Part shown: positions 1,806-12,931 of the stretch, piece by piece
Layout of the letters: each line of letters starts with the position of its first letter
How positions within the stretch are numbered: the first letter of the stretch is position 1
NCBI GenBank assembly: GCA_030698575.1
Contig: JAUYMQ010000108.1
Span: forward strand, 1 to 13,099
Length of the DNA stretch: 13,099 nucleotides
Direction of reading: 5' to 3'
Origin: Deltaproteobacteria bacterium
GTDB lineage: Bacteria > JAUYMQ01
Made by a program: the position numbers and the translations under genes
The notes under the pieces: generated by a model
What the model was told of the DNA's origin: nothing
Seen by the model: the letters and a program-made list of their open reading frames with translations, nothing else
Database searches by the model: none

Positions 1806-2108
1806 TCAGTCGAGGCGCTCACCGAAGGGCTCAACGCCCTCGGCCTCACAGTCCTCGCAGGCCGGGCACTGGCCCGACGGCCAGCCACCGGCCGGCGGCT
1901 CGCCGTCCGGGTGACAGCGGGTGCACAACGGCTCGCCCTCTGCCTCCAGACCCGCCTCCTCCTCCTGCCGCGGCCGGCCGCAGCAGGAGCACTTGGCCTC
2001 GGCCCTGGCCGCAACGTTGGAATCCCACTCGAGCCCCGCCCAATCCTGGGCGTGGGCCTCGACGTAGGCGGTGAGGGCGGTGAGGGCGGCTGTGTCTGTG
2101 GTGCTCAT
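1806..2108 (-). CDS. Small zinc-ribbon-like protein
   Basis: 100 aa from ATG 2108 (an adjacent ATG at 2111 is also possible; GGAG lies 5 nt before 2108). N-terminus is helical (MSTTDTAALTALTAYVEAHA). From residue 36 on it carries CSCCGRPRQ, then CTRCHPDG, then CPACEDC: three cysteine clusters, compatible with one or two structural zinc sites. The gene is preceded by hairpin repeat copy C. The segment coding for the first two cysteine clusters (1901-2012) is duplicated in inverted orientation at 4246-4357. No family assigned; small zinc proteins in phage early operons are often DNA- or protein-binding, but function is unknown here. Confidence 0.75.
   Translation of the reverse strand: MSTTDTAALTALTAYVEAHAQDWAGLEWDSNVAARAEAKCSCCGRPRQEEEAGLEAEGEPLCTRCHPDGEPPAGGWPSGQCPACEDCEAEGVEPFGERLD
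1901..2012. repeat. 112-bp inverted duplication, left copy
   Basis: The reverse complement of this stretch matches 4246-4357 at 109 of 112 positions by eye. This copy lies inside the zinc-ribbon gene and codes for its CSCC and CTRC motifs, so it is probably the source. Confidence 0.95.
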
Positions 2109-2123
2109 CATCTCTCCGGTGGT

Positions 2124-2156
2124 TGCGGCGGGCCCCACGCCCGCCTCGGTTTCAGA
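2124..2156 (-). repeat. Hairpin repeat copy C (short form)
   Basis: Only the start-proximal third of the repeat is present: the perfect 7-bp stem with GTGGG loop (2127-2145) and the adjoining CTGAAACCGA box. It ends 18 nt before ATG 2108. The sequence upstream diverges completely from copies A and B, so the hairpin is the conserved core. Confidence 0.85.
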
Positions 2157-2421: not shown

Positions 2422-2525
2422 TCAGTAGGGCAGGTCGGCGTCGGGCGGCCCGCGGTATCGAGGTCTAGGCGGCACAGGCCCTTGACATCTCGTACGTGTA
2501 GCGCAGTAATGGTCTGGGTGGTCAT
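2422..2525 (-). CDS. Small ORF (about 34 aa), probable frame break
   Basis: ATG at 2525 overlaps the NinB-like gene's stop as ATGA, so translation here is expected. It begins MTTQTITALHVRDVKGLCRLDLDTAG. In the sequence as written the frame then stays open through the plus-strand gene and hairpin repeat into the zinc-ribbon gene (to 1806), which is implausible as one protein. A single-base shift near the GGGCCGCCC run (about 2448-2456) gives an ending PPDADLPY at a TGA at 2422-2424 and a 34-aa product. Exact end is inference; no function recognised. Confidence 0.45.
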
Positions 2526-2941
2526 GCCACTCCTCCGGGCTCTGGGATGTCTACCCCAAATTCGGTCAGCGCCCACTGCCGAGCCCAGTCGATCAACGCC
2601 GTGAATTCAGCCGTCGTCAGCCGTGACGACGACGTACATCGCGGCACTCGCTGTCCGAGCGCCTCGCCACTCCATCCACGCCAGCACGCCAGTAGCGCGT
2701 AGTGGATGCGGTCGAGGCCATCGGCTCCGCTTTCGCCCACGTGCTGGGCCACGCGCGGCACGACCACGCCCCACCAATAGCGGTTCTGATCCGTCGAGCG
2801 GCGCGCGCGAGTTCGACGGATCACCAGCTCGACGCGGATCCCTTCGAGGCGCTCCAGGTAGGCCGCTAGTCTCTGGCGGTCGAGCCCGTCGAGACGACCA
2901 TCGCGGACCATGGCGTGCCACACGGGCACAGGAGAGCTCAT
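2522..2941 (-). CDS. ninB: NinB-like recombination protein
   Basis: 139 aa. Recognised by the NinB-family pattern: basic stretch then STDQNRYWWGVVVPRVAQHVG (residues 49-69), the DRIHYALL segment (77-84), a threonine/serine segment (SSSRLTTAEFTALIDWARQW, 104-123) and the closing EFGVDIPEPG (127-136). In lambda, NinB (Orf) binds single-stranded DNA and SSB and assists recombinase loading, replacing RecFOR. Its position just behind a Rad52-like annealase fits a phage recombination module. Start ATG 2941 overlaps the preceding stop (ATGA) and has no strong ribosome site of its own, so it depends on coupling. Length is near the family's usual ~140 aa. Low overall identity expected; assignment is by motif reading. 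Confidence 0.8.
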   Translation of the reverse strand: MSSPVPVWHAMVRDGRLDGLDRQRLAAYLERLEGIRVELVIRRTRARRSTDQNRYWWGVVVPRVAQHVGESGADGLDRIHYALLACWRGWSGEALGQRVPRCTSSSRLTTAEFTALIDWARQWALTEFGVDIPEPGGVA

Positions 2942-3099
2942 CGGTGCTCGTGCTCGTGCTCGTCGAGCATGGCGCAGATGCGCGCCGCCTCCGCGCGAAG
3001 TGCACGCGGCCCGTAGTCTCGCTGGTGGCGAGCCCGACTCCGCGCCGTCGTGCCGCCGCGCAGTGGTACGCGGCGCACTGGCGGGCCAGATCTCCTCAC
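2938..3099 (-). CDS. Small coupled ORF between Rad52-like and NinB-like genes
   Basis: 53 aa from GTG at 3099, which overlaps the Rad52-like stop as GTGA; its own TGA overlaps the NinB-like ATG as ATGA. This double overlap bridges what would otherwise be the operon's only gap of about 150 bases. The first half is Arg/Pro/Gly-rich; the second half looks helical and natural (RDYGPRALRAEAARICAMLD, then EHEHEHR). No family recognised. An alternative is that the NinB-like gene starts further upstream in its own open frame, but that N-terminal sequence is low-complexity and lacks a start in a good context. Confidence 0.6.
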   Translation of the reverse strand: MRRSGPPVRRVPLRGGTTARSRARHQRDYGPRALRAEAARICAMLDEHEHEHR

Positions 3100-4127
3100 G
3101 GTGCGATCTCACCGCACGTCGAGCACGACCGCCCAGAGCGGTGCATCGACGCGCGCGGGCACCCGGGAGGCGAGGACGTCTCGGGCTCAGGATCCACCTC
3201 GGCCTCGGGCTCGGGCTCGGGCGGGCGCGGCGCGCCGACCAGGTGGATCAGGCGGGCCAGGTCTGCGCGGGTCGGATCGCGCGACGAGTCCCAGCCTGAC
3301 TGCTCCGCTGCTCGCGCGGCCACCTCTTCTCCAGCCGTGCGAGTAGCCCAGGCCGTGGCAGCCGCACACAGATCGATCGGGACTACCGCGTCGTGGTCGC
3401 CCCGCGACTCGACCAGCCAGTCCTCGAGCTCGTACGGGAGCTCGTACGGCTCTAACGCGCCACGCACCTCAGCCGCGCTCCGAGAAGCCCGCCGCGCCAC
3501 AGGGCGCGGGTCTGGGCCAGACGGCACAGTGCGGTCTCCGACCTGCTCGTCGGCGCTATCCTCCCGAGGCAGATCATCTGGGTCGGCGTCTTCGGCCTCG
3601 CCGAACAGGCCGGCTGGAAGGTGCTGCACGTCGTCCAGGCGTGGTACGAGAGCGTATCCGTAGACGGCCGCCTTTTTTTCGGAAATCCGGATCCACCGCG
3701 CCCGATCCGCACCACGCGGGGGCCGCTCGGCGAAGTCCAATGACCAAACATCCCTTATCGTCGAGATGGACGCTCCAATCCCGAGGTTACTCGCGACTCT
3801 CTTGAGGCTGTCGGAGTACCCGCCCTTGAGGGGCTCGGAGCTAGATGGCACACCTACATCCTCATGCGTGGTCTCGCGGTCACCGTCACGCACGGTCAGG
3901 CGGCAGACGAATCCACCGCCAACCGACTCGTACGCTGCCGACCACCCGAGCGGCCCGAATGCAGCGTTCAGGCGGCGAATCACTGCGTGTCTGTTGATGC
4001 AAGGAATCAGCAGCACGCTCGGTTTGCTCCTGGCGCCCTTTCCGGCCACGATATGACCGGCTCGCCACGCCACCTCGTCGTCACGGATCGGCTCCGCAAG
4101 GGCCGTTAGGTTCGTTATGCCCATCAT
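3096..4127 (-). CDS. Rad52-family single-strand annealing protein
   Basis: 343 aa. The N-terminal ~135 residues carry the Rad52/Rad22 double-strand-break repair pattern: a conserved start (LAEPIRDDEVAWR), a core of strands and helices (residues 47-95, containing GPLGWSAAYESV and VCRLTVRDG), and the diagnostic KGGYSDSLKRVASNLGIG (101-118), equivalent to the SDALKRAA..LGIG motif. Such proteins form rings that anneal complementary single strands during phage recombination and replication. A long, Pro/Glu-rich variable region follows, and the last ~20 residues contain three cysteines and a histidine (CPRASMH..CSTC), a possible zinc knuckle. ATG 4127 is chosen because GGAAGG lies 6 nt upstream and it overlaps the preceding stop; a second ATG follows at 4124. 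The frame extends upstream to 4337 but through the duplicated segment, which is not coding in that frame. Confidence 0.85.
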   Translation of the reverse strand: MMGITNLTALAEPIRDDEVAWRAGHIVAGKGARSKPSVLLIPCINRHAVIRRLNAAFGPLGWSAAYESVGGGFVCRLTVRDGDRETTHEDVGVPSSSEPLKGGYSDSLKRVASNLGIGASISTIRDVWSLDFAERPPRGADRARWIRISEKKAAVYGYALVPRLDDVQHLPAGLFGEAEDADPDDLPREDSADEQVGDRTVPSGPDPRPVARRASRSAAEVRGALEPYELPYELEDWLVESRGDHDAVVPIDLCAAATAWATRTAGEEVAARAAEQSGWDSSRDPTRADLARLIHLVGAPRPPEPEPEAEVDPEPETSSPPGCPRASMHRSGRSCSTCGEIAP

Positions 4128-4426
4128 TCCCGGCCTTCCCACGCCAGGGCGAGTTCGCAGCTCGGCCCGATGCCTGCCATAGACGAGACGCAATCCATGC
4201 AATCGTCTAGCAGATGGACGAGAGCCCCTGGCCGCCCTCGTCCTCGCGGCCAGTGGCGAGGCCAAGTGCTCCTGCTGCGGCCGGCCGCGGCAGGAGGAGG
4301 AGGCGGGTCTGGAGGCCGAGGGCGAGCCGTTGTGCACCCGCTGTCACCCGGACGGCGCGACCCACAACACTCGACATCGATCGGAGCCGAGAACTTCTCG
4401 CACGCCTCGCACCATAACTTTTCCAC
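4124..4426 (-). CDS. Cys-rich leader gene of recombination operon, with antisense insert
   Basis: 100 aa from GTG 4426 (AGAGGGG 5 nt upstream), 27 nt after the predicted RNA start, ending in TGA that overlaps the Rad52-like ATG (ATGATG). Residues 1-22 read like a zinc-ribbon (MEKLWCEACEKFSAPIDVECC) and residues 62-100 are ordinary soluble sequence with CMDC. Residues 24-60 are low-complexity Pro/Arg/Ala (for example RPPDPPPPPAAAGRSRS): they come from the antisense reading of the 112-bp inverted copy of the zinc-ribbon gene. The insert is not a multiple of three yet the frame is open to the coupled stop, so the ancestral length is uncertain. It may be a disrupted or chimeric gene, or an assembly artefact. 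Confidence 0.65.
   Translation of the reverse strand: MEKLWCEACEKFSAPIDVECCGSRRPGDSGCTTARPRPPDPPPPPAAAGRSRSTWPRHWPRGRGRPGALVHLLDDCMDCVSSMAGIGPSCELALAWEGRE
4246..4357. repeat. 112-bp inverted duplication, right copy
   Basis: Matches the reverse complement of 1901-2012 with about three mismatches. In the plus-strand sense frame it still reads AKCSCCGRPRQ and LCTRCHPDG without a stop, but an in-frame TAG lies upstream at 4180 and no ATG, GTG or TTG follows before the copy, so it is not a functional plus-strand gene. It interrupts the gene at 4124-4426 in antisense. Confidence 0.95.
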
Positions 4427-11717: not shown

Positions 11718-12416
11718 TCAGCGACGCATGATCTTTGCGACGGTGCCGTGGTGCCAGCGGCCGCCTCGCTTGGTCGGGATGCCGGCGGCGTTGAGCCGCC
11801 GGGCAACCTCGGAGAACGTCTCCCCCTGCTCGTCTACGAACTCGCGGACGAGCGCCACGGTGAGCAGCTCGTCCTCGACCTCGACCAGGCTCCGGCGCCC
11901 CTGGGCGTCGCGCTCGGGCGCGTAGGCGTAGCCGAGGGGCGGGGGACCCGTGCTGTAGCCCTGGGCTCGCAAGTGAGCCAGGGCGTCTCGGATGCGGTCA
12001 CGCAGAAGCGATCGCTCCATCTCCGCCGCGCTGGCGAGGATCCCGAGCACCATGCGCCCGGCCGTCGTCCCGACGTCCACGCCGAGGTCGAGCAGGTGGA
12101 GGCCCAGGCCGCGCTGCTGCCACGCTTCGGTGACCGTCAGCGCCTCGGACGCCCGACGAAACAGCCGATCGAGGCGCGGCGCCACGACCACGTCGACGAG
12201 ACGCTCCTCGACCAGGCGGACGAGCTCCGCACCCTCTGGGCGCTTGGCCAGTGGGACCGAGGCAGAGACGCCTCGGTCCACGGCTGTCCGCACGACCTCG
12301 AGCCCTCGGCCCTGGCAGAAGGCGGCGAGGGCGGCCTCCTGGGCGGCGAGCGAGACGCCGCCGTCTGCTTGCTCACGGGTCGAGACGCGTGCGTAGATGA
12401 CGGCCCTCTTGGTCAC
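11718..12416 (-). CDS. Serine recombinase (short resolvase-type)
   Basis: 232 aa. Residues 1-150 form the resolvase/invertase catalytic domain: YARVSTREQ with the nucleophile Ser12 and Arg10, DRGVSAS (47-53), RLDRLFRR with Arg81/Arg84, and the long E-helix (AEMERSLLRDRIRDAL, 131-146). Residues 155-232 match the start of the Recombinase domain that follows it in larger enzymes (PPPLGYAYAPE, FSEVARRLNAAGIPT, KRGGRWHHGTVAKIM), where a helix-turn-helix binds DNA. The zinc ribbon and coiled coil of phage large serine integrases are missing, so it is more likely a resolvase/invertase-like enzyme than an integrase. GTG 12416 overlaps the methyltransferase stop (GTGA), with GAGGAG 5 nt upstream. No att or res site recognised nearby. 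Confidence 0.9.
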   Translation of the reverse strand: MTKRAVIYARVSTREQADGGVSLAAQEAALAAFCQGRGLEVVRTAVDRGVSASVPLAKRPEGAELVRLVEERLVDVVVAPRLDRLFRRASEALTVTEAWQQRGLGLHLLDLGVDVGTTAGRMVLGILASAAEMERSLLRDRIRDALAHLRAQGYSTGPPPLGYAYAPERDAQGRRSLVEVEDELLTVALVREFVDEQGETFSEVARRLNAAGIPTKRGGRWHHGTVAKIMRR

Positions 12417-12931
12417 GACAACTCCTCGAACGCGAACGTTCCCTGATTCCGCTCGTGGCGGAAAAGGACATTGCCGCTGGCGAGACGCTCTCGAATGATC
12501 TCCGTGTAGGCGGGCTCGACCTCGATGAGCGTTGCCTCGATCCCGAGTTCCTGCGCGGCTACCCCGGTGGATCCAGAGCCGGCGAATGGGTCGAGGACCC
12601 GCGACCCCGGAGCGAGGGGAGCGAGGAGAGCATGCATGAGTTCGATGGGTTTGCCAGCCAGGTGCAACTTCTGCTTCGGCCCGCAGGAGGACAGCCCCTT
12701 CGCTCCCCACACGACGTAGGACCGCTGATCCCGATTGTCGCCAGAGAAGCTCGGGTCGACGGTCAAGCTTCCGGAATGGCGGTGCTTAACCTCGGGAGAT
12801 CGGGAGCGATCAGCCCGGGAAAGGCCTCCCGAGGAGTAGGGAGGGTCGGTCACGACAGCGTCGAACATCCCCTCTGGGAGCTCCCGGAGCGCAGCGTAGC
12901 TTTCACCCTCGATGATCGTGATTGCCGACAC
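12413..12931 (-). CDS. DNA methyltransferase with internal deletion
   Basis: 172 aa from GTG 12931 (GGAGG about 4 nt upstream). DPPY (29-32) is the catalytic motif of N6-adenine/N4-cytosine methyltransferases and DPFAGSGSTGVAA (114-126) is the AdoMet-binding motif I, with KPIELM between, as in the beta (permuted) class. Family members typically have, between GDNRDQRS and YVVWGAKG, about 60-70 residues containing a PGG turn, TDWRQLP-like and GRFR-Q-EY elements; here these join directly at residues 70-72. The deletion is in frame and both flanks are well conserved, so the loss is probably recent. Activity is doubtful. A stop-start overlap couples it to the recombinase. Likely role when intact: protecting phage DNA from host restriction. 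Confidence 0.85.
   Translation of the reverse strand: MSAITIIEGESYAALRELPEGMFDAVVTDPPYSSGGLSRADRSRSPEVKHRHSGSLTVDPSFSGDNRDQRSYVVWGAKGLSSCGPKQKLHLAGKPIELMHALLAPLAPGSRVLDPFAGSGSTGVAAQELGIEATLIEVEPAYTEIIRERLASGNVLFRHERNQGTFAFEELS

Follow-up and report, generated by a model that had tools for sequence, protein, structure and literature searches.

An inverted, near-identical copy of a cysteine-rich gene segment lies within a second cysteine-rich gene next to a Rad52/Sak-type annealing gene

The window, i.e. the whole stretch of DNA analysed here, corresponds to one full contig (C7; 13,099 bp) from a metagenome bin of 4.13 Mb and 653 contigs. It encodes a Rad52/Sak-type annealing protein, NinB, an O-like replication initiator, an SNF2-type helicase, a serine recombinase and a DNA methylase, and is predicted from this gene content to be the early region of a phage or prophage without a known close relative. 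The Sak-type protein matches the Rad52_Rad22 and Sak profiles and belongs to the Rad52 superfamily. Two small Cys-rich genes, referred to as the left and the right gene, are separated by a region that includes a short rightward frame (2229-2416), and neither a promoter nor a terminator was recognised on the minus strand. The serine recombinase gene (11718-12488, minus strand) ends inside the Recombinase domain (profile positions 5-50 of 102) and encodes either a short form or a truncated protein. The minus-strand frame 279-980 encodes a pentapeptide-repeat-like protein and has a tandem DNA period of 15 bp.

Table 1. Features of the contig that bear on the inverted repeat
Feature	Position	Strand	Remarks
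Left gene	1806..2108	-	Ordinary small Cys-rich gene, 100 aa; without family match
Left (putative donor) copy of the repeat	1901..2012	-	Sense segment of the left gene, AARAEAKCSCCGRPRQEEEAGLEAEGEPLCTRCHPDGE; in frame, coding-like codon use on both sides
Inner repeat edge	2002..2012	.	Two mismatches close together, followed by 8 identical nt, CTGGCCGC; possible microhomology junction
NinB/Orf recombination mediator	2522..2944	-	phrog_72 6e-13
Rad52/Sak-type single-strand annealing protein	3096..4127	-	Pfam PF04098 1e-6; phrog_1097 5e-21; start overlaps the stop of the right gene
Right (putative recipient) gene	4124..4426	-	Small Cys-rich ORF, GTG start; 37-codon Pro/Arg-rich antisense insert
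Inverted copy	4246..4357	+ (sense of the left gene on + strand)	Antisense to its host gene

In a repeat search, the two copies listed in Table 1 formed the longest inverted repeat of the window. They extend over 112 nt, are 97% complementary and are spaced by 2233 nt. The first-pass annotation had described the right copy as the reverse complement of the left copy with about three differences in 112 bases; there are exactly three mismatches, at left-copy positions 1941, 2002 and 2004, and the exact-match runs are 40, 60, 1 and 8 nt long. In a search of the whole genome bin, one copy matched the other with an E-value of 6e-49, while no third copy was detected, i.e. the segment is present in two copies that are both on this contig. 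The pair is not explained by chance. The core (1902-2001) has one mismatch in 100 nt, which is synonymous in the frame of the left gene (GCA/GCC).

The two remaining mismatches both fall within the terminal 11 nt at the repeat's inner edge, for which an identity of at least 9/11 has a chance probability of 4e-4. Clustered mismatches beside an 8-nt identity, observed at the inner edge only, are what a microhomology junction would leave, and this edge (CTGGCCGC) can be read as a microhomology switch point; it fits equally a true repeat end, i.e. shared ancestry followed by two later substitutions. The outer edge has no clear microhomology, and at the repeat edges no target-site duplication beyond a 4-mer was found. 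The repeat is centred on a 28-bp quasi-palindrome with the rest of its sequence outside the palindrome, and its fold is no better than that of shuffled sequences (z -0.8).

Inverted repeats of this kind are rare in the sequences with which the contig was compared. Among 762 kb, which is the readable sequence of 140 of the bin's contigs, no second inverted repeat of at least 50 bp at an identity of at least 85% was detected, and the one other inverted repeat found has a length of 41 bp. Eight Sak/Erf-encoding phages (349 kb) contained no inverted repeats of at least 40 bp. Direct repeats are present in both sets.

The left gene has a leader and an N-terminus similar in style to those of a neighbouring small gene. 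In its frame, codon scores are +6.5, +1.8 and +4.6 bits, i.e. the sequence is coding-like on both sides of the repeat as well as through it. Read in this frame, the left copy encodes the Cys motifs CSCC and CTRC, as had been proposed, and is continuous with a CPAC motif past the repeat edge. In a test for paralogy among the neighbouring small genes, the N-terminus of the left gene had weak similarity to that of the gene at 1304-1700, which is above most shuffles (23 of 1000 reach it); similarity to the N-terminus of the 1060-1200 frame was not significant (66 of 1000 shuffles reach it). For the left protein, structure prediction from its single sequence was of low quality (pLDDT 61) and was not used.

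The right gene is located directly upstream of sak, with its TGA and the Sak start overlapping in the sequence ATGATG. Its frame is open, and its flanks are Cys-rich, with the motifs CEAC...ECC and CMDC. These gene frames, including the coupling of the stop to the Sak start, had been called correctly in the first-pass annotation. The two flanks share a reading frame, which continues through the insert without a stop. The flanks (63 codons) score +9.0 bits, i.e. coding-like, whereas the insert (37 codons in the same frame) scores -10.1 bits and is not coding-like, with the reservations that such scores are noisy for segments of 23-40 codons and that two minus-strand frames tie in the N-terminal flank. 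Scores as low as that of the insert are found in 0.8% of true-frame windows from ten genes of the contig. The codon scores thus back the earlier description of an inverted duplication with sharp boundaries that is embedded antisense in another Cys-rich gene. Random antisense 111-bp frames of the contig are open with a frequency of 0.48; together with a chance of 1/3 for the frame, the probability of an accidental open in-frame insert is ~16%. Therefore, the preservation of the frame is weak evidence, and tolerance by luck is plausible without invoking selection.

We searched for relatives of the contig in several collections. The contig itself had no megablast match in sets of 50,697 phages and 72,556 plasmids. 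Searches of IMG/VR, phage, plasmid and GTDB contig collections with the segment, the two Cys-rich proteins, Sak, NinB, the helicase and a further protein of the contig did not reveal a close relative; one contig in IMG/VR shares only a Sak, which is 32% identical. The bin is the sole member of its phylum in the genome collection searched. A version of the right gene free of the insert, which the first-pass annotation had suggested looking for, was absent from every collection searched. Upstream neighbours of Rad52 genes in known phages were considered as empty-site homologues and rejected, none of them being Cys-rich. The gene order around the right copy resembles that in the Pseudoalteromonas phages Y3 and H6/1 and in the Vibrio phage 1.232.O, in which Rad52/Sak is leftward; two of these three records have a small leftward gene in front of it, and divergent rightward genes lie beyond on that side.

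In total, these observations support that a segment of ~100-112 bp was copied from the left into the right gene in a single recent inverted duplication, probably by template switching or strand annealing, and we give this reading a probability of about 0.7. The left gene is the likely donor and the right gene the likely recipient on the basis of the coding scores, the synonymous core mismatch and the antisense orientation of the right copy. Because no empty-site relative was detected, the direction and the date of the event are drawn from codon and frame arguments only. We infer that template switching is the best-fitting mechanism. A nascent strand would leave the recipient template, anneal to the left gene's complementary strand, copy ~110 nt of it and then go back to the recipient template. 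The phage's own Sak annealing protein may plausibly have helped, which is a guess. In fission yeast, the annealing activity of Rad52 drives template switching (PMC9701231), and promotion of template switching by Rad52-class annealing proteins is also reported elsewhere (PMC7954356, PMC2621351). The insert would now form a Pro/Arg-rich linker within a small protein, and is probably tolerated rather than selected.

As a sharp-edged reverse-complement copy of nearby sequence with possible microhomology, the repeat resembles the products of replicative template-switch mutations, i.e. those of the quasipalindrome/inverted-repeat type and of microhomology-mediated break-induced replication. It differs from those cases in that donor and recipient are 2.2 kb apart, no pre-existing inverted repeat is known and the setting is a phage; here, the mechanism is read back from its product. 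The locus would be a clean instance of a short piece of coding sequence that was copied in reverse into a different gene and left its frame open, in a phage with its own annealing protein. It has been proposed that events of this type give rise to new protein segments and to long stretches of RNA complementarity; young cases, in which the copies have kept 97% identity, can help to trace their origin. As a single unreplicated case on a metagenome contig, it is a curiosity and not a system.

An alternative, also raised in the first-pass annotation, is that the repeat is an assembly artefact, either a chimeric join at the right copy or a mis-orientation of the 2.2-kb segment between the copies via the 60-bp identical core. 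The bin is a metagenome of short contigs, identical runs of 40 and 60 nt could mislead a short-k assembler, and the repeat is the sole one of its size and identity in the 762 kb. However, three sites distinguish the copies, their four flanking sequences are all different, the flanks of the right copy share one frame with a stop that overlaps the Sak start, and neither a misjoin nor a flipped segment would be expected to yield the gene order and orientation shared with Y3, H6/1 and 1.232.O. With frame continuity and synteny with Rad52 phages speaking against it, an artefact is possible but rather unlikely. A further alternative is a mobile element that inserted itself in both genes. Rickettsia palindromic elements are ~100-150 bp and inserted in frame in protein-coding genes (PMC10969869), and the repeat, with ~110 bp, its in-frame position in a coding gene and its central quasi-palindrome, is reminiscent of these or of a MITE; however, those elements form multi-copy families, while one inverted copy of a coding segment is all that is found here. 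Moreover, the left copy is normal coding sequence continuous with its gene, the palindrome is confined to the centre and folds no better than shuffles, and the missing target-site duplication together with the lack of other copies in the bin gives no sign of a mobile element, which makes this origin very improbable. With only two copies and none elsewhere in the bin, no target-site duplication, and the only reverse transcriptase found in the bin on another contig, the segment-shuffling mechanism suggested in the first-pass annotation is not supported, whereas template switching, suggested alongside it, has become the favoured mechanism.

The arrangement could also be a working device. Both genes are on the minus strand, and their predicted mRNAs are complementary over 112 nt with a computed duplex energy of -278 kcal/mol; moreover, the contig's serine recombinase matches DNA-invertase as well as integrase families. 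Thus, the two transcripts might form dsRNA, or a recombinase or homologous recombination might flip the 2.2-kb segment. For a DNA-invertase segment, both orientations are expected in the population. However, complementarity follows automatically from any inverted copy between genes on the same strand and does not imply a function, and a flipped segment would part sak from the gene upstream of it and agree with none of the compared phage gene orders. We regard such a device as improbable. Still more speculatively, the duplicated segment might be kept as a regulator, with the message of the first gene of the sak operon acting as antisense to the downstream Cys-rich gene; if so, an accident of template switching would have turned into RNase III-type or translational cross-control between two genes, a proposal to which we give very little weight.

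A near-identical pair of ~110 bp with one copy inside another gene is also found in the template and variable repeats of diversity-generating retroelements. This candidate was rejected: no reverse transcriptase was found on the contig, and the bin's only RVT_1 match is on C132; the mismatches are not adenine-specific (they affect an A, a C and a G in the sense strand of the donor); and the copy is antisense in its host gene. In the coding palindromes of Nematomorpha mitochondria, long inverted repeats of up to 284 bp overlap coding sequence (PMC6649704); there, both arms encode conserved protein, whereas here only one arm reads in sense.

The contig also contains direct repeats near the left gene. 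Two leader copies, 1216-1297 and 1719-1799, have a length of 82 bp and an identity of 94%, from which it follows that short duplicative events happened here more than once. Three near-identical leaders (1204-1249, 1707-1752 and 2111-2156, minus strand) with a GGCGGGC...GCCCGCC hairpin are located directly before the starts of small genes, two of them sharing the 82-bp stretch, and are reminiscent of the start-associated sequences of Cluster K mycobacteriophages (PMC3203893). Homopolymers at ~1629-1641 and 2248-2256 (a C/G run and an A run) coincide with a shift in the likely frame of a small gene, from either assembly error or slippage. Finally, a locus on another contig of the bin (C50, 6128-16934) contains nine direct repeats of ~65-105 bp between short genes, most of which are bounded by GCCTAAC...GTTAGGC; it is a predicted integron attC cassette array.
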